Part shown: one piece after another, positions 1,735 to 15,584 of the stretch
Position numbering within the stretch: the first letter of the stretch is position 1
Layout of the letters: each line of letters opens with the position of its first letter
IMG/VR virus record: IMGVR_UViG_3300008110_000654
Span: 1 to 31,244 of that record
Reading direction: 5' to 3' (one strand)
Length of the DNA: 31,244 bases
Source: a virus
Program-made: the position numbers and the translations under genes
Notes under the pieces: generated by a model
Databases searched by the model: none
Seen by the model: the letters and a program-made list of their open reading frames with translations, nothing else
What the model was told of the DNA's origin: nothing

Positions 1735-3984
1735 ATGAGACTTTTTTTTATTTTATTACTATTACCATTTGTAACTCATTCGCAAGACACTCTATTTTCA
1801 AAACAACTATCAACGGTAACAATCCGTTCAACCGGTAAGAAATCTACCGAAGCAGCTGTAATAACTACAATTCGTAATTCATCTGTAGTTTCGGATGGAG
1901 TATCGGTTGAATTTATTAAAAAGACACCCGATAGAAATGTAGGTGATGCACTTAAAAGAGTGAGTGGTGTTACAATACAAAACGATAAGTTTGTATTAGT
2001 AAGAGGTTTGGCAGACAGATACAATTCTGCATGGTTAAATAAAACCCCACTACCATCAACGGAACCTGATAGAAAATCTTTTTCCTTTGATATAATCCCA
2101 ACATCATTAATTGATAATATTATTGTTTCCAAATCGGCAGCAGCAAACCTACCGGGTGATTGGTCAGGCGGATTGGTTCAAATTTCAACAAAGGATGTAT
2201 CCGATAACTTTTTTAATATTTCATTGGGAAGTGGTTGGGGTTTGGTTTCAACTTTGAAAAGTTTCAAGTTAGTTCAAGCTACCGAATTCCCTTCCACATT
2301 CCCATCTACTTACAAATACCGAATTAGTGGAAATGGTGATAAGAGGTTATATACAAAGCAATTTAACAATCCGGATGTTAATAATTTTACATCAATTCCA
2401 AACTTAAATGGTGGCCTTTCATTTGGATATAAAAGAGGTAAATGGAATGGATTATTAAGTTCCACAATCAGAAACACATATACTCTCAATTATATTGATA
2501 GAAAAGATTATCAATCATCAACTGAATTAGCATACGATTATAAAGATACTCTATTTACAAAAAGATTTTCCGCAAATGGACTTGTTAACTTAACTTATTT
2601 GGGTGATAATCGATATAGTTGGAAAACATTAGTAAACTACCAAACAGATGATACATATCTAACCCGTAATGGTGATAATTTTGATAATGTTCAGAATGTT
2701 AGGAGCACTTCATCTAATCACCTTAATACAATTGTTATTAATTCACAATTTGATGGTAAGATTAAAACTTTAGATTTTAATTTAGGATACAATTATATTT
2801 TCAGACAACAACCTGATTATAGAGTTAATCCAATTACAAAATCATTAGGTATCAACGAACCTTACGCAACTGCATGGAGAGATACATATCGTTTTTGGAG
2901 TGTGATGGATGAGAATTCTTTCAATGGTAACATCAATAAAGAATTTGGTAAGATTAAAATGGGTGGTAGTTATCTAAAAAAGATTAGAGGATTTAATGCA
3001 AGAGTATTTCGATATCAATCAACCGATATGATGGATGAAATTACAAACAATACTGATAGATATACTGCTGATTTTGATTTAGGTTCTCTTTATTCAATGT
3101 ATGAAAATGAATTTGGTAAATGGAAATTAAATACCGGATTGAGAGGTGAGTATAACCTATTTGATGTAGCAACTGCAGATTTTAGTGGACAGAAAGTAAA
3201 TGTGGATAGAGAGTATTTAGACCTTTTACCTTCACTTAACCTTTCATACAACGAAACTAAAACAAAGTATAGATTTTCGGTAAGTAAAACATTGGCAAGA
3301 CCGGAGTTTAGAGAGGTAGCAAATTTTGCCTATTATGATTTTGTAAGAAACGCACAAATTTTAGGTAACTCAAAGTTAGAAAAATCTGACATATATAATT
3401 TAGACCTCAAATACGAATGGTATCCAAAAGCAGGTGAGAATGTTTCTGTTTCTTTATTCGGTAAAAACTTTATTAAACCAATTGAACAAATTGTAGCAGA
3501 TGGTTCGGTTCCATCAAACTTATTATTAACTTACACAAATCCCAATTCGGCTATTCTATATGGTGTTGAATTGGAAGTTCGTAAAAAGATAAATGATTGG
3601 GTTGATTTCTACACAAACCTTTCAGTAATGAATTCGGAAGTAGAGGTAAATGATATTAAAAGACAATTGCAGGGGCAATCAAACTATGTGTTAAATGGTG
3701 GAGTGAATATACACAAAAATAAAAATACCATAAACATAACCTACAATAGAGTTGGAGATAGAATATCAGCAGTAGGATTTCAGGGTTATCCGGACATCTT
3801 TGAAAATAGTAGAGATGTATTGGATATAACTCTTTTACACAAATTAAATAAAGGTGAAATAAAATTGGCAATGGGTGATGTATTTGCGCAACCATCAATC
3901 TATTACCAAAAGTTACAAAACCGAAATTTGATAAAAACAAACAACGAACAAACGATTTCATTAACATTAAATTTGAATTTATGA
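1735..3984 (+). CDS. TonB-dependent outer-membrane receptor
   Basis: 749 residues. Signal peptide MRLFFILLLLPFVTHSQD, then TVTIRS, which could serve as a TonB box. A plug domain follows at about 45-160, with DVGDALKRVSGVTI-type and FVLVRGLADRYN sequences, then IDNIIVSKSAAANLPGDWSGG and VQISTKD, the usual plug end. Residues about 165-749 are alternating aromatic/polar beta strands of a 22-strand barrel. Bacteroidota homologues often carry an extra N-terminal carboxypeptidase-like domain, absent here. Such receptors import large or scarce substrates using TonB energy. The stop overlaps the start of the next gene (ATGA), so the pair is coupled. No frameshift is seen. A receptor in a phage-like region is unusual; the substrate cannot be told from sequence. 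Confidence 0.93.
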   Translation: MRLFFILLLLPFVTHSQDTLFSKQLSTVTIRSTGKKSTEAAVITTIRNSSVVSDGVSVEFIKKTPDRNVGDALKRVSGVTIQNDKFVLVRGLADRYNSAWLNKTPLPSTEPDRKSFSFDIIPTSLIDNIIVSKSAAANLPGDWSGGLVQISTKDVSDNFFNISLGSGWGLVSTLKSFKLVQATEFPSTFPSTYKYRISGNGDKRLYTKQFNNPDVNNFTSIPNLNGGLSFGYKRGKWNGLLSSTIRNTYTLNYIDRKDYQSSTELAYDYKDTLFTKRFSANGLVNLTYLGDNRYSWKTLVNYQTDDTYLTRNGDNFDNVQNVRSTSSNHLNTIVINSQFDGKIKTLDFNLGYNYIFRQQPDYRVNPITKSLGINEPYATAWRDTYRFWSVMDENSFNGNINKEFGKIKMGGSYLKKIRGFNARVFRYQSTDMMDEITNNTDRYTADFDLGSLYSMYENEFGKWKLNTGLRGEYNLFDVATADFSGQKVNVDREYLDLLPSLNLSYNETKTKYRFSVSKTLARPEFREVANFAYYDFVRNAQILGNSKLEKSDIYNLDLKYEWYPKAGENVSVSLFGKNFIKPIEQIVADGSVPSNLLLTYTNPNSAILYGVELEVRKKINDWVDFYTNLSVMNSEVEVNDIKRQLQGQSNYVLNGGVNIHKNKNTINITYNRVGDRISAVGFQGYPDIFENSRDVLDITLLHKLNKGEIKLAMGDVFAQPSIYYQKLQNRNLIKTNNEQTISLTLNLNL

Positions 3985-6245: not shown

Positions 6246-6744
6246 GTTTGTAGATTCAACAAAGGAATTTGATATTATAGATAAAATCGGAAACGAATTA
6301 ATCCAATCGGGTTATAACGCATCTAACTCCATTATTATAACGGTATCTACCGATTATAGTTCAATCATTGGCCAGATATTACGGCATCAATTAAGCCACG
6401 CTGGAGAGGTTGTAGATGGGTTTGGTATTGATGTACCATACCCAGATGAACAATGGGATGAGATATATCGTACCAAATTAGCAGCGGACTTACAAAATAA
6501 TTCAAAAAACGTTTATAATAAGAATATAATATTGGTTGAGGCCGGCGTAATACGGGGTGGTAATTATGAGTATGTCGTAAACTATATGAATAAATGGTTG
6601 GGAATAAATAACAATATTATAACCGTAGCTATGTTTGAAAATATAGGTTCAAAGTGGGAGAGTGATTTTGTTGGTGAATACTACGATGATACTTTTGAAG
6701 ATTTAACTTTTTGGTGGGAGAGAGAAAACAAACATTGGAAATAA
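6232..6744 (+). CDS. Unknown protein, possibly phosphoribosyltransferase-like
   Basis: 170 residues, starting inside the end of the SpeD-like gene (14-nt overlap, different frame), so the two are likely co-translated. Two hydrophobic strands stand out: SIIITVSTDYSS at about 34-45 and NIILVEAGVIRGGNYEYV at about 97-114. The second has the strand-acidic-loop-Gly-Gly-helix shape of a PRPP-binding loop (as in VLIVDDGITTG), and the aromatic C-terminus (WWERENKHW) recalls the hood region of that fold. The match is loose: the double acidic residue is missing. Treat the fold as a guess and the gene as real. Confidence 0.6.
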   Translation: MRNIKFVDSTKEFDIIDKIGNELIQSGYNASNSIIITVSTDYSSIIGQILRHQLSHAGEVVDGFGIDVPYPDEQWDEIYRTKLAADLQNNSKNVYNKNIILVEAGVIRGGNYEYVVNYMNKWLGINNNIITVAMFENIGSKWESDFVGEYYDDTFEDLTFWWERENKHWK

Positions 6745-6781
6745 TTTTGCCAATTCAAAAAGTTTCATTATATTGAAGTTT

Positions 6782-7222
6782 ATGAGAATAAAAAATTGGA
6801 ACAAATTGGTTGGTGAACGGGTTACGATATTAGGTAGTGAATTCATTATAAGTGAAGTTGAAGATATATCCACAAACTATAAAGCATCTTTTTTTGATGC
6901 ATATTCTTTAAAAAAAATATTCGATATCCTTTTATATAAAAAAGATGGTTGTTTTGATTTAAAATGCGAATTCGATATAAACAGTTTAGCAATCATACAC
7001 AATCAAGCGATTAGGGCAGTTTTAAGAAAGAATGATGTAATTACAATTAATTCATTTATAAATACGATTGTCAGAGTATTTACAAAAAATAATATAATCT
7101 ATTCATATTTTCAGTTAATTGGTGAAGCACAAAAAATAAATAAAAACAAAAATAAATTAAAGATTTCAAATGGTGGTGGTACATATGGAATACCCACCGG
7201 TAGTTTAATTTCTAAAATTTAA
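6782..7222 (+). CDS. Hypothetical protein
   Basis: 146 residues from the ATG at 6782 (an upstream in-frame TTG at 6773 is less likely). Mixed alpha/beta composition with a Lys/Asn-rich C-terminal third and a Gly-rich end (NGGGTYGIPTGS). No signal peptide, membrane helix or recognisable motif. Just upstream, TTTTG and TATATTGA spaced 19 nt resemble the local promoter type weakly, but the implied start would fall at the ATG itself. It lies in line with the preceding genes and before a small basic ORF. Confidence 0.55.
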   Translation: MRIKNWNKLVGERVTILGSEFIISEVEDISTNYKASFFDAYSLKKIFDILLYKKDGCFDLKCEFDINSLAIIHNQAIRAVLRKNDVITINSFINTIVRVFTKNNIIYSYFQLIGEAQKINKNKNKLKISNGGGTYGIPTGSLISKI

Positions 7223-7394: not shown

Positions 7395-7760
7395 GGGGAT
7401 GTTTGGTATTGATTGCCATGCGAATGGTAGTACCACACGTAGTGGGATGGTTCTCCAACCACTTTAATATCGGAACAAAACAACAAACGACGAAATGTCA
7501 ACTATGACCTTCGATGACCTTATGGCCTTCGTTGGTGCTGATTACGCTGTAGCAGCCTAATCCCTCCCGCACACATTGTGGGACTTTAAAAAGAATGTGA
7601 AACCAATGTGGCGTAGGAGCCGAATCGAACTCCTACCACTGTCGGCTAACACGGTGTGAAAATGTTAGATAGGTACTTATTCCGAATAATAAGATAAACG
7701 TGTGAAACGCTGGTATTATGATTACTTGGTAAGACACGGGTTCGACTCCCGTCATCTCCA
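7395..7760 (+). ncRNA. ssrA: tmRNA (phage-encoded, about 366 nt)
   Basis: The 5' GGGGATG pairs with 3' CATCTCC (one G-U) to form the acceptor stem, and the T arm ACGGG-TTCGACT-CCCGT sits just before it, followed by discriminator A7760 and CA. Inside is a reading frame ending GADYAVAA and TAA at 7558-7560, the hydrophobic degron typical of tmRNA tags. It aligns at its start (ACA AAC GAC GAA) with the ANDE start of the E. coli tag. A hairpin TGGTT/AACCA lies just upstream as PK1 candidate. A clear pseudoknot is visible downstream: stem GTAGGAG/CTCCTAC (about 7611-7636) with loop AGCCGA pairing to TCGGCT. tmRNA rescues stalled ribosomes and tags truncated proteins. Confidence 0.93.
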
Positions 7761-7763
7761 CAA

Positions 7764-7865: not shown

Positions 7866-7897
7866 TTTGGTGGTTTGGAAAAGTTTTCGTATATTTG
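7866..7897 (+). promoter_or_regulatory. Promoter P1 (Bacteroidota -33/-7 type)
   Basis: TTTGG at 7866-7870, 19-nt spacer, TATATTTG at 7890-7897, an excellent match to the TTTG / TAnnTTTG sigma-A type of this phylum. The expected start is near 7901, which favours ATG 7916 over 7901 for the downstream gene. Confidence 0.85.
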
Positions 7898-7915
7898 GAT
7901 ATGCCAAACAAAAAT

Positions 7916-8464
7916 ATGAATACCTACGTTGATTTTTACGAATCAAAAATCGATGAAGCAACCCATTGGGGTAAAAAAGGTAAAATGGGAATGGTTAGGT
8001 CAACTATGAAAGATTCGGTAGAGTTACTACTTGATCTTATATGGGAAACCGAAACGGGTGGGGAATCGAAGAAAAACGATTTTGTAAATTCCACATCCAA
8101 AAATGGATATGTACTTAAATTTCAGGTAGATAGACATTTGTATACAAAAAAGAAAAGTTTGAAGGGGTTGTGTGAGTGTAAGGCTTATTTAGATAGGTGT
8201 TTTATGGAGAGAGCTAGTTCCGATTTTGGTAGAATTAAAAACGGAATTATTGATAAACCACTAACATCGATTCTATCATTGGAAGATGCAGTTGGTAGTA
8301 ATGCATTTTACTATTATATTGATGAAGGAAACATAGATAGAGTATTTTTCCTATTGGATGGTAAGAGAAACCCTAAAAAACCAATTTGGAAACCAAAGTT
8401 TAGAAAAAGTATAAATGTAGATAAATTAGAAGAATTTGTTTCATTTATAAATAATATAAAATAG
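7916..8464 (+). CDS. PD-(D/E)XK nuclease candidate, restriction-endonuclease-like
   Basis: 182 residues from ATG 7916; ATG 7901 is in frame but would coincide with the predicted transcription start. The segment QVDRHLY...LCECKAYLDRCFMERASSDF (about 70-104) carries Asp72 and Glu87-Cys-Lys89, the spacing and sequence of a PD-(D/E)XK metal site, followed by a helix with Arg/Glu. The motif looks like that of type II restriction enzymes. No methyltransferase is adjacent, so a simple restriction-modification pair is unlikely; it could be a homing-type or host-directed nuclease. The gene stands alone with its own promoter and is followed directly by the tRNA region. Confidence 0.65.
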   Translation: MNTYVDFYESKIDEATHWGKKGKMGMVRSTMKDSVELLLDLIWETETGGESKKNDFVNSTSKNGYVLKFQVDRHLYTKKKSLKGLCECKAYLDRCFMERASSDFGRIKNGIIDKPLTSILSLEDAVGSNAFYYYIDEGNIDRVFFLLDGKRNPKKPIWKPKFRKSINVDKLEEFVSFINNIK

Positions 8465-8477
8465 TTCTTTTATATAT

Positions 8478-8549
8478 TGTGGGGTAGAGCAGTGGTAGCT
8501 CACTAGGCTCATAACCTAGGGGTCGTTGGTTCGAATCCATCCCCCGCAA
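8478..8549 (+). tRNA. tRNA-Met(CAT), initiator-like
   Basis: Acceptor TGTGGGG/CCCCGCA, anticodon loop CTCATAA with CAT at 8510-8512, T loop TTCGAAT, A73 followed by CA. Sequence blocks TAGAGCAG, GGTAGCTC, CTCATAACC, GGTCGT and CCCCCGCAA closely follow bacterial initiator tRNA. Pair 1-72 is U-A instead of the C/A mismatch, and the anticodon stem (CTAGG/CCTAG) has only two G-C pairs next to the loop rather than three. Confidence 0.93.
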
Positions 8550-8559
8550 CAAAAAAAGA

Positions 8560-8591
8560 TTTGGTAGTTTGAAAAAATTATCCTATCTTAC
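8560..8591 (+). promoter_or_regulatory. Promoter P2 for small RNA A
   Basis: TTTGG at 8560-8564, exactly 19 nt, then TATCTTAC at 8584-8591. It lies 10 nt after the initiator-like tRNA and directly before a self-complementary stretch with no ORF. Confidence 0.8.
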
Positions 8592-8592
8592 A

Positions 8593-8697
8593 TTTAAGAT
8601 GATTGGTTGAAGCCAATAGTAATAAAACCGACTATGTGATTTCAAAGGGTGTGAGAGTTCATTTGAATATAAAGCCGGAAACTAATTATCTTAAAAA
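8593..8697 (+). ncRNA. Small structured RNA A (candidate)
   Basis: Closed by TTTAAGAT (8593-8600) with ATCTTAAA (8688-8695); inside are ATTGG-ttgaag-CCAAT and a CCG ... CGG closing pair around a 40-nt internal region. No ORF. P2 places the start near 8595. I do not recognise the class. Confidence 0.55.
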
Positions 8698-8713
8698 GTT
8701 TTTTGAAAATAAA

Positions 8714-8745
8714 TTTGGTAGTGTAAAAAATGTTTCGTATATTAC
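8714..8745 (+). promoter_or_regulatory. Promoter P3 for small RNA B
   Basis: TTTGG at 8714-8718, 19 nt, TATATTAC at 8738-8745. There is no coding sequence downstream before the next promoter, so it should produce a short RNA. Confidence 0.78.
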
Positions 8746-8749
8746 ATAA

Positions 8750-8797
8750 GTAAATGAGAAACAATAGGTGATGAAAGATACTCGTTATCAAATTTAC
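8750..8797 (+). ncRNA. Small structured RNA B (candidate)
   Basis: GTAAAT (8750-8755) pairs with ATTTAC (8792-8797); an inner TGAT/ATCA stem is possible. About 48 nt, right after P3 and about 20 nt before promoter P4. Unknown class. Confidence 0.4.
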
Positions 8798-8816
8798 AAA
8801 AAAACTTTTATAAATA

Positions 8817-8848
8817 TTTGGCGATTTAAAAAATTATTCATATATTTA
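8817..8848 (+). promoter_or_regulatory. Promoter P4 for the large structured RNA
   Basis: TTTGG at 8817-8821, 19 nt, TATATTTA at 8841-8848. The expected start is near 8852, just before the first helix of the large RNA. Confidence 0.85.
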
Positions 8849-8851
8849 TAA

Positions 8852-9812
8852 AAATCACACTACTGATTGAATATGGGAGTAGTATAAACGGAGTATCCTT
8901 AACAGGACATAAGTTTGGCCCATATCCACAAAGTTCTTTAAAAGATTGAAAATATTGCACATAGTAGATTCGTTCTACATAGTGTATGACCGCCGCCTAT
9001 GGTGGTTAAATAAACTACGAAAGTAGGATAAAGTGGGTATAGTTGGTTTACTATATCTGCGGCATCAGAAATGGTGCTTGAGTAGGCAAGTGGGATATCA
9101 TTTGAGCTTTGTACGAAAGGGTAACACTATATCGGAAGAGTTTGAGTGACCAGGGATATGTAGAATCTTTGGTTGAGTTGGGAACAACAATAAGAATAAC
9201 CCATAGAATGCCTGTGAGAAGTATGAGGCTAATCACCTTATACCATTGCGACATTCAATTTCAAAGTAAACTTAAAACCAAGCTATCCGAAAGGACGTAA
9301 GGTAAGTTGATGTACAGGTGGTGCTGTTATTAACCTTTAATGTGGGACACCAATCCCTATTAATGAAGTGGACTTAAAAAATGGTACTGACGATAGTACA
9401 TTGGGTAGTTTAGTATTCTCTCGTTCAAAAGATGGGGGAGCTGGTTGGCAAGCCACTACCTGAACAATCTACAAACCAAATTATTTGCATATGGATTGCA
9501 AAATTCAATTAACAAATAAGCATGAGTGCTTGCCAGTTACGGACGAAAGGTGTCTACATAGTATTGGGTTGTCCAATGCCACGATACCTCCGCAAGAGGT
9601 CTGTGATTGTAACGAAAAGTTTCTAACACCGCAAGTGTGAATTAGCTCGGCAGAGTTGGAGAAATAGAGTAATTACAGAGTAGTCAGTAACTTAATGAGT
9701 GGTTAGCATTACTAACCGACACTGAACGAATACCATTCAAAAGGTGGTGGATAAGAAAGGAACTAATAATCTTTCTAAAGGTTGTTCAACCCAACGAGTA
9801 ATCTCATCGTTT
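8852..9812 (+). ncRNA. Large ornate non-coding RNA (about 960 nt)
   Basis: No plausible gene here: ORFs are short and lack the local start context. The stretch is saturated with perfect helices: a 5' pseudoknot (ACTACT/AGTAGT at 8859-8883, its loop ATATGGG pairing with CCCATAT 8919-8925); GTAGA/TCTAC 8964-8978; GACCGCC/GGTGGTT 8988-9007; CTAC-GAAA-GTAG 9015-9026; TATAGT/ACTATA 9038-9055; GTTG-GGAA-CAAC 9177-9188; AACTTA/TAAGTT enclosing TCC-GAAA-GGA near 9268-9308; GTACT/AGTAC near 9384-9399; AAGCA/TGCTT 9518-9531; ATTGG/CCAAT 9563-9577; ACCTC-CGCAA-GAGGT 9586-9600; ACAC-CGCAA-GTGT 9626-9638; GGTTAG/CTAACC 9701-9717; AGAAAG/CTTTCT 9754-9776. Size, tRNA neighbours and phage setting resemble GOLLD and ROOL RNAs, but I cannot assign it to either. 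Co-transcription with the tRNA-Gly 5 nt downstream is likely. Confidence 0.75.
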
Positions 9813-9817
9813 TATAA

Positions 9818-9888
9818 GCGGAGTTAGTGTAACGATAGCACATCGGACTTCCAGTTCGAAGGATGTGGTTTAATTCCATGGCCCCGCT
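9818..9888 (+). tRNA. tRNA-Gly(TCC), first copy
   Basis: Acceptor GCGGAGT/GCCCCGC with one A-C mismatch, anticodon stem TCGGA/TTCGA, loop CTTCCAG with TCC, T loop TTTAATT, U73 as expected for Gly. It starts 5 nt after the large RNA region. Confidence 0.88.
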
Positions 9889-9934
9889 CTAAATTTTAAA
9901 AACATATACTTATTATAAATGAAATCTTTAACAA

Positions 9935-9986
9935 CACATAACACAATTTGTAACCCAATTATTATTTGGAACAGAATTGCTATGTG
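9935..9986 (+). ncRNA. Inter-tRNA structured spacer D (candidate)
   Basis: Three nested helices: CACATA/TATGTG (9935-9940, 9981-9986), CAATT/AATTG, and CCAA/TTGG around TTATTAT. No ORF. Sits between tRNA-Gly and a strong terminator. The rest of the gap (9889-9934, 9987-10019) shows nothing I can name. Confidence 0.45.
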
Positions 9987-10019
9987 CCGTTAAGGAGAAT
10001 TTATTTTCAATATAGTTTG

Positions 10020-10053
10020 AAACCCCTTAACGAAATGTTTAGGGGTTTTTTTA
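10020..10053 (+). terminator. Intrinsic terminator of the large-RNA/tRNA-Gly unit
   Basis: AAACCCCT (10020-10027) pairs with AGGGGTTT (10041-10048), extended by an AA/TT pairing inside, and is followed by a T-rich tail. It probably ends the transcript that begins at P4. Confidence 0.88.
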
Positions 10054-10063
10054 TTTTATAAAT

Positions 10064-10602: not shown

Positions 10603-11127
10603 ATGAGACGTAAAATTATTTTTATTGATATAGATGGACCATTGGCGTGGGGAACTTGGGGTGATGGTAAAGTTACTATGCATGAATCTATTGCGGAATT
10701 TTCTATACCATATCCTTGGGTACATGAAGATTGTGATGCACTTCATCAAATTTGTGAAGAAACAAATGCAAGTTTGGTAGTGAGTTCGGATTGGAGAAAG
10801 CATTTCACCTTTATTCAATTAAGACGGATTTTCCAATACTATGGTATCCATGCACCAATTGTGGATATAACCACACATCAGGACCTATGGATGAAAATGA
10901 GTAGACCGGGTGCTGAATGGGAAAGGGCAGCTGAAATTACTAAATGGGTTAAAGATAACAAAATCAGTAATTGGATTTCAATTGATGATATGAAATTAGA
11001 CCAACAATATAAATGGATGAAACCAAAAGTTCCAATGTGGAGACATGTTCAGGTTGATGGTGACTTTGGAAATGGTGGTAGATTAAGAGATAAGATAGAT
11101 GAATGTATAAAAAAATTAAATAGGTAG
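10603..11127 (+). CDS. HAD-superfamily phosphatase, RNA-repair type (HAD_SAK-like)
   Basis: 174 residues. FIDIDGPL at 7-14 is HAD motif I with Asp9 (nucleophile) and Asp11. VVSSDWR around residues 59-65 gives the motif II Ser in the SSDWR form typical of HAD domains of the Swiss-army-knife RNA repair set. ISIDDM near 126-131 gives the acidic motif. The fold removes phosphates; in this subfamily the proposed substrate is a 3' or cyclic phosphate at a broken RNA end. Placement between tRNA genes fits a role in tRNA repair after anticodon-nuclease attack. The fold is confident, the substrate inferred. Confidence 0.8.
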   Translation: MRRKIIFIDIDGPLAWGTWGDGKVTMHESIAEFSIPYPWVHEDCDALHQICEETNASLVVSSDWRKHFTFIQLRRIFQYYGIHAPIVDITTHQDLWMKMSRPGAEWERAAEITKWVKDNKISNWISIDDMKLDQQYKWMKPKVPMWRHVQVDGDFGNGGRLRDKIDECIKKLNR

Positions 11128-12616: not shown

Positions 12617-12648
12617 TTTGGAAATGTTGAAAAATATTTCTATATTAC
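12617..12648 (+). promoter_or_regulatory. Promoter P5 for tRNA-Leu and downstream genes
   Basis: TTTGG at 12617-12621, 19 nt, TATATTAC at 12641-12648. The predicted transcript begins just before AGTTCTTTAAG (12653), a boxA-like sequence, and tRNA-Leu follows at 12668. Confidence 0.82.
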
Positions 12649-12667
12649 ATTTAGTTCTTTAAGAAAT

Positions 12668-12757
12668 GCCCTGATGGCGGAATAGGTAGACGCGCAAGAC
12701 TTAAAATCTTGTTCACCGAAAATGTGAGTGCCGGTTCGATCCCGGCTTGGGGCACCA
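12668..12757 (+). tRNA. tRNA-Leu(TAA) with encoded CCA
   Basis: Acceptor GCCCTGA/TTGGGGC, anticodon stem CAAGA/TCTTG, loop CTTAAAA with TAA at 12702-12704, long variable arm (TTCACC...GTGAGT), T arm GCCGG-TTCGATC-CCGGC, A73 at 12754 and CCA at 12755-12757. Confidence 0.95.
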
Positions 12758-12791
12758 TCATCGTTCTTTGACATATAGGAGAAAATAAATT

Positions 12792-15512: not shown

Positions 15513-15584
15513 GCGGATATCGTATAATGGTTATTACTCCTTCCTTCCAAGTAGGAGATGTCGGTTCGATTCCGGCTATCCGCT
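15513..15584 (+). tRNA. tRNA-Gly(TCC), second copy
   Basis: Acceptor GCGGATA/TATCCGC, anticodon stem CCTTC/GTAGG with a T-T mismatch, loop CTTCCAA with TCC at 15546-15548, T arm GTCGG-TTCGATT-CCGGC, U73. Same anticodon as the copy at 9818 but a clearly different body, so not a recent duplicate. Confidence 0.88.

Follow-up and report, generated by a model that had tools for sequence, protein, structure and literature searches.

A phage GOLLD RNA with a boxA-like site at its front and a degenerate tRNA-Gly behind its 3′ end

Downstream of a promoter in a phage tRNA array, positions 8852–9812 of IMG/VR virus record IMGVR_UViG_3300008110_000654 form a stretch of nearly 1 kb with no credible gene, which raises the question of what this DNA encodes and how its product is made. 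The original prediction was a large ornate non-coding RNA with the size and setting of GOLLD and ROOL, either a divergent member or a new class. We analysed the whole record of 31,244 bases, referred to here as the window; the features identified are collected in Table 1.

Table 1. Features at and around the GOLLD locus of the window
Feature	Position	Strand	Evidence
Second promoter (8714–8743) and conserved 50-nt leader hairpin element (8746–8805)	8714–8805	+	Upstream of GOLLD
Bacteroidota-type promoter P4, TTTGG-N19-TATATT	8817–8846	+	Box scan; upstream regions of homologues
Optional 5′ leader pseudoknot	8858–8925	+	Stem 8859–8864/8878–8883; loop 8871–8877 with 8919–8925
boxA-like putative antitermination site GTTCTTTAAAA	8933–8943	+	Fits consensus GYTCTTTAANA
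GOLLD 5′ domain (cap domain)	8944–9400	+	Consensus of 102 pairs, of which 82 show a compensatory double change at least once; 8992–9207 matches LR745206.1
Conserved GAAA-capped hairpin CUACGAAAGUAG	9015–9026	+	Pattern AATAAACNNCGAAAGNNGNATAAAGT matches at least 120 viral-contig rows
GOLLD 3′ domain	9401–9810	+	RF02032 positions 1–416, 295.8 bits, E 6.6e-84
Variable linker in 3′ region	9461–9527 (approximate ends)	+	Unpaired variable stretch of Rfam alignment
CGCAA-loop hairpin, probable L21a kissing loop (bridge B8 of the 14-mer)	9626–9638	+	Mapped by numbering
Degenerate tRNA-Gly (TCC), probable 3′ processing signal	9818–9888	+	Rfam, 41.4 bits; missed by ARAGORN
Intrinsic-terminator-like hairpin and T-run	10024–10053 (hairpin 10024–10045)	+	Number found not above chance

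Identity of the RNA and its two domains

The Rfam scan proposed with the original prediction (cmscan) assigned the 3′ part of the stretch to GOLLD (RF02032) with about twice the cut-off score of 150 bits, and the model was covered in full, without truncation. This model describes the conserved 3′ domain only (410 nt here), and the 5′ half is without an Rfam model. In published GOLLD RNA a 5′ domain of lower conservation is present as well (PMC12286853); the window RNA exceeds 800 nt in total and includes an additional structured 5′ domain (8933–9400). Its setting in a virus record, near tRNAs, is likewise that of GOLLD; ARAGORN called 16 tRNAs in the window, to which Rfam added a tRNA-Gly. ROOL is alike in size, phage setting and tRNA neighbours, but its sequence is unrelated: ROOL, OLE and HEARO had no Rfam match in the window at gathering score, and no other large-RNA family, these three included, matched 8551–10063 up to E 10. 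As had been claimed, the stretch holds no credible gene; the only ORFs overlapping 8852–9812, of 63 and 67 aa, are chance ones and do not argue for translation. Folding of the RNA gave an MFE of −265 kcal/mol (z −3.9 relative to 20 shuffles).

The 5′ half belongs to GOLLD as well. A blastn search with 8700–9900 identified a match of 72% to the 5′ domain in LR745206.1, an uncultured huge phage of 634,780 bases. This match adjoins the phage's own GOLLD 3′ domain, which lies directly behind it (287.3 bits). Relatives were gathered from IMG/VR viral contigs with a 3′-domain pattern (61 loci) and with the 5′ hairpin pattern listed in Table 1, which gave at least 172 loci with a match; at least 135 of these span both domains and were grouped into 57 clusters at 85% identity. 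A strict version of the 3′-domain pattern, GAGTAATNACAGAGTAGTC, matched zero viral contigs. Among 84,980 bacterial and archaeal genomes, the 5′-domain pattern was found in none and the 3′-domain pattern had 13 matches, 12 of which were rejected, the Mycobacterium one alone being a real GOLLD.

An alignment of 46 5′ domains (A1; homologues below 85% identity) revealed the massive covariation that the original prediction had named as its test. Paired cells amounted to 96.5%, compared with 37–43% when partners were slid by 1–3 columns, and 897 cells were changed on both sides, compared with 65–143 in the slid controls. These compensatory changes refute the reading of the stretch as a protein-coding remnant or a chance structure in AT-rich intergenic DNA, which the presence of short ORFs might suggest and to which we assign next to no probability. 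The predicted GNRA-capped hairpins fared unevenly: GAAA at 9015–9026 and GGAA at 9177–9188 are conserved in the 46 homologues, whereas the GAAA hairpin near 9288 is found in only part of them.

Restriction of the Rfam model to the 3′ 410 nt would leave room for a new class that resembles GOLLD in size and setting only. The strength of the match over the full model refutes this, as do the co-occurrence of the 5′ and 3′ halves in the loci that span both domains and the presence of a recognisable 5′ half in LR745206.1 and, on the basis of a motif, in Acinetobacter phage Ab15; a new class is thus improbable in the extreme. A divergent member is not supported either: the full-length relatives of the RNA in IMG/VR are numerous and many carry Bacteroidota-type promoters. 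With its full-length RF02032 match and covarying 5′ domain, the window RNA is a straightforward member of the known GOLLD RNA, which bears out the GOLLD reading of the original prediction.

Several other elements were observed in its surroundings. A tmRNA (RF00023) lies near GOLLD in the window (7395–7763, a copy not called by ARAGORN), and two further phages with a GOLLD encode one, L221 (1717–2086) and L040 (9602–9987). The window also encodes a TonB-dependent receptor with OMP_b-brl_3 and Plug domains (1735–3984), as does the GOLLD-bearing LR745206.1. A possible small RNA at 8590–8712, with its own promoter (8560–8589), has a long closing helix (TTAAGATGATTGG/CTAATTATCTTAA) and a folding z of −2.1. 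Adjoining the tRNA array, 10603–11127 encodes a protein with a HAD_SAK_2 domain, of the Swiss-army-knife type linked to RNA repair, for which tRNA repair would be a fitting role.

Promoters, leader elements and the boxA-like site

Boxes of the form TTTGG-N18-20-TATNTT, which we take to resemble the Bacteroidota promoter consensus, occur eight times on the plus strand of the window and never on the minus strand (0.5 expected), and four of the eight fall in 7866–8846. The predicted promoter P4 exists as a site of this type; a sigma-70 promoter scan of the window stayed at chance level. Ahead of boxA, 38 of the 55 homologue clusters carry TTG-N17-24-TAnnTTTG, against an expectation of 0.7. We infer a large phage of Bacteroidota type and a corresponding host, in which RNA polymerase would start at about 8853.

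Two elements occupy the leader upstream of boxA. The 5′ pseudoknot of the original prediction is present, and compensatory changes in L041 and L221 convert its ATATGGG/CCCATAT pairing to ATGTGAA/TTCACAT (three sequences only). Because it is absent from the closest homologues, it represents an optional leader element outside the core GOLLD. The 50-nt leader hairpin element, with the core AUAGGUGAUGAAAGAUACUCGGUAU, 22 invariant positions and a closing helix that covaries, is carried by 77 IMG/VR viral contigs (e.g., L088, L222 and L228) and has no Rfam match. It lies right behind Bacteroidota-type promoters, usually upstream of GOLLD and sometimes upstream of tRNAs or other RNAs. When folded as single sequences, the pseudoknot and the small leader hairpin did not stand out clearly from shuffles; support for both comes from comparison.

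Between the promoter and the RNA we identified a perfect fit to the gamma-proteobacterial boxA consensus (PMC5725501). An identical boxA of a Legionella CRISPR array raised precursor transcription of the array about tenfold (PMC7862264). Of 19 Bacteroidota 16S leaders (at least 200 nt), 12 contain the word GTTCTTTRA upstream of 16S, and others have it with one mismatch. Among the GOLLD relatives, 51 of the 56 clusters possess the word within −60 to +30 of the 5′ edge of the homologous region, as do 119 of the 133 loci; about 0.3 clusters are expected, and the background, taken from the rest of the same loci, is 0.0048 per 90-nt stretch. Among 42 permutations of its first seven letters the word ranked first; second place went to an overlapping register, and the median was 0. 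The patterns used to gather the relatives did not include it, and in the set found by the 3′-domain pattern alone it is present in 15 of 17 clusters.

The same word could be part of the conserved structure of a plain GOLLD, or a phage promoter-proximal motif other than a Nus-factor site. Its constant position where the homologous region begins would suit such a role. We nevertheless consider this unlikely, since the word is unpaired in the 46-sequence consensus, recurs in host 16S leaders and stands ahead of other non-coding transcripts, including tRNA transcripts (L225, L242 and L284) and another large RNA (L222, L252 and L266). Its occurrence before unrelated transcripts indicates that it is not an element of the GOLLD fold. 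It also appears, as GTTCTTTAACA, at the 5′ end of the L040 GOLLD, a strongly divergent member (161.6 bits) whose 5′ domain could not be aligned, and again in the window between a promoter and tRNA-Leu, at 12654. In this second instance promoter, boxA-like word and tRNA-Leu follow in a row (12617–12668), and a further boxA-like word lies just behind the tRNA-Leu, at 12763.

No boxA was found near the GOLLDs of the Acinetobacter phage L003, L035, L043, Mycobacterium L178 or L028. The GOLLDs of L003, L035, L043 and L178 are situated inside tRNA arrays with a tRNA just upstream and no promoter, a position that may explain, post hoc, why they lack the site. The non-coding region of ∼1 kb in Vibrio phage ICP1 likewise yielded no boxA, so that not all giant phage RNAs have the site.

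Most simply, a GOLLD that has its own promoter would recruit the Nus complex. NusB/S10 of the host would load at boxA together with the remainder of this complex and render the polymerase Rho-resistant, which would allow an untranslated, structured RNA of ∼960 nt to be produced in large amounts, as happens with rRNA. The succession of promoter, boxA and long untranslated structured RNA is shared with rRNA operon leaders and CRISPR-array boxA, and the word itself is common to Bacteroidota 16S leaders and GOLLD fronts. In contrast to the rRNA operon leader, the product here is a phage RNA, only boxA was identified, without boxB or boxC, and the Nus site is putative.

Two further non-coding stretches were observed in viral contigs. 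A structured-looking RNA of ∼560 nt lies behind the leader hairpin and boxA and has a terminator at its end (in L222, minus strand, about 6500–7090); its pattern is present in seven contigs (L222, L230, L252, L266, L268, L274 and L283), has no Rfam match and represents a candidate new large phage RNA. The other, a stretch of ∼400 nt containing GGTGGTTCCCCATACTCNCC, follows a tRNA with a long D-loop insert and also ends in a terminator. It occurs in 27 contigs (including L223, L224, L225, L226, L238, L242 and L284), with no Rfam match in those scanned.

The region behind the 3′ end

The tRNA-Gly predicted directly behind the RNA was recovered by Rfam only, 7 nt past the 3′ end of the model. It is degenerate: the acceptor has a mismatch and the T-loop lacks its usual C, so that RNase P would not with certainty cleave at this tRNA. 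A further tRNA-Gly-TCC is located at 15513. In 29 loci the next downstream tRNA lies 6–17 nt past the homologous region, and otherwise none is found before 98 nt; in the divergent GOLLDs of L040 and Mycobacterium L178 the distance is 9 nt each. Five clusters (L038, L079, L089, L113 and L164) possess minihelices composed of a 7-bp acceptor stem and T-arm only. These sit 5–9 nt behind GOLLD and comprise four different, fully paired stems; about 0.03 such clusters are expected, the frequency elsewhere being 0.0005 per comparable site. An acceptor stem with a T-arm is a minimal substrate sufficient for RNase P.

The tRNA behind GOLLD might simply be a decoding tRNA, the next gene of the array, with the RNA 3′ end made by a terminator or an exonuclease. 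tRNA arrays are tightly packed, and in 23 of 57 clusters (∼40%) a terminator-like hairpin within 80 nt takes the place of the tRNA. However, minihelices that lack the D and anticodon arms are unable to decode, and still their position and pairing are kept; the jump in tRNA distances from 17 to 98 nt also speaks against mere packing; we therefore regard this alternative as rather doubtful. The clusters ending in a terminator-like hairpin do imply that RNase P trimming is not general. For a subset of GOLLDs including that of the window, 3′ trimming by RNase P appears likely: the enzyme would cut where the tRNA or tRNA-like hairpin begins (about 9817/9818), which would set the GOLLD 3′ end. In the window, a terminator had been predicted near 10020. 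The hairpin and T-run are there, but one match was obtained where 1.2 are expected by chance.

A comparable arrangement is known from MALAT1/mascRNA, in which the 3′ end of a long RNA adjoins a tRNA-like element processed by RNase P. The GOLLD 3′ end similarly abuts an element that RNase P could cleave. It differs in belonging to a bacterial phage RNA, in that the element ranges from a full tRNA to an acceptor/T-arm minihelix, and in that cleavage is predicted from this layout.

Probable oligomerisation and implications

GOLLD is known to form cages composed of RNA only. The cryo-EM structure of GOLLD env-38 is a 14-mer in which a symmetric kissing contact is formed by loop L21a, which alternates between GC and CG (PMC12286853). 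The two CGCAA hairpins pointed out in the original prediction (9586–9600 and 9626–9638) correspond to standard GOLLD 3′-domain loops, and the latter is probably L21a. All 54 readable clusters have a self-complementary dinucleotide at its centre (42 GC, 11 CG and 1 AT); on this basis, the window RNA most probably oligomerises too. The linker, described in the same structure (PMC12286853), would be expected inside the cage by analogy. The window RNA thus resembles env-38 in its 3′-domain match, 5′ domain, length, phage tRNA array, self-complementary GC/CG kissing-loop dinucleotide and unpaired linker. In contrast to env-38, it adds a promoter, boxA and optional leader elements at the 5′ end and has a degenerate tRNA-Gly right behind its 3′ end, and its linker contains no tRNA.

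GOLLD RNA would fold unaided into a two-domain subunit, and the subunits would assemble into a homo-oligomeric cage like the env-38 14-mer (PMC12286853). GOLLD is reported in PMC7567579 to accumulate in lytic growth and to be dispensable in one Lactobacillus brevis prophage, and PMC12286853 mentions a reported pull-down of GOLLD with ribosomes. Late in infection, the cage would most likely serve to store or sequester RNA or cargo related to the ribosome.

A promoter, a boxA signal, a two-domain covarying GOLLD with its kissing loop and a tRNA behind the 3′ end can all be read directly from the DNA. We consider it probable that they belong to a GOLLD of a large Bacteroidota-type phage, which would be transcribed with the help of boxA, trimmed by RNase P and self-assembled into a cage. 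Evenly poised, in our judgement, is the broader proposal of an rRNA-like programme (promoter, leader hairpin or pseudoknot, boxA) for GOLLD in Bacteroidota-type phages, partly minihelix-trimmed, in which the leader element and boxA would form a phage antitermination module common to GOLLD, tRNA transcripts and one or more other, undescribed large RNAs. As far as we checked, the boxA at the front, the tRNA or minihelix behind the end and the optional leader elements are new; within a limited literature that included few subscription papers, we found no report of boxA or antitermination with GOLLD, or of the minihelix layout.

If correct, boxA would explain how long untranslated GOLLD RNAs are made in large amounts. 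It would also tie GOLLD to the Nus/ribosome-assembly machinery, S10 being both NusE and a ribosomal protein. Mutation of boxA and the tRNA-like 3′ hairpin would then provide handles for controlling and mapping this RNA in vivo.
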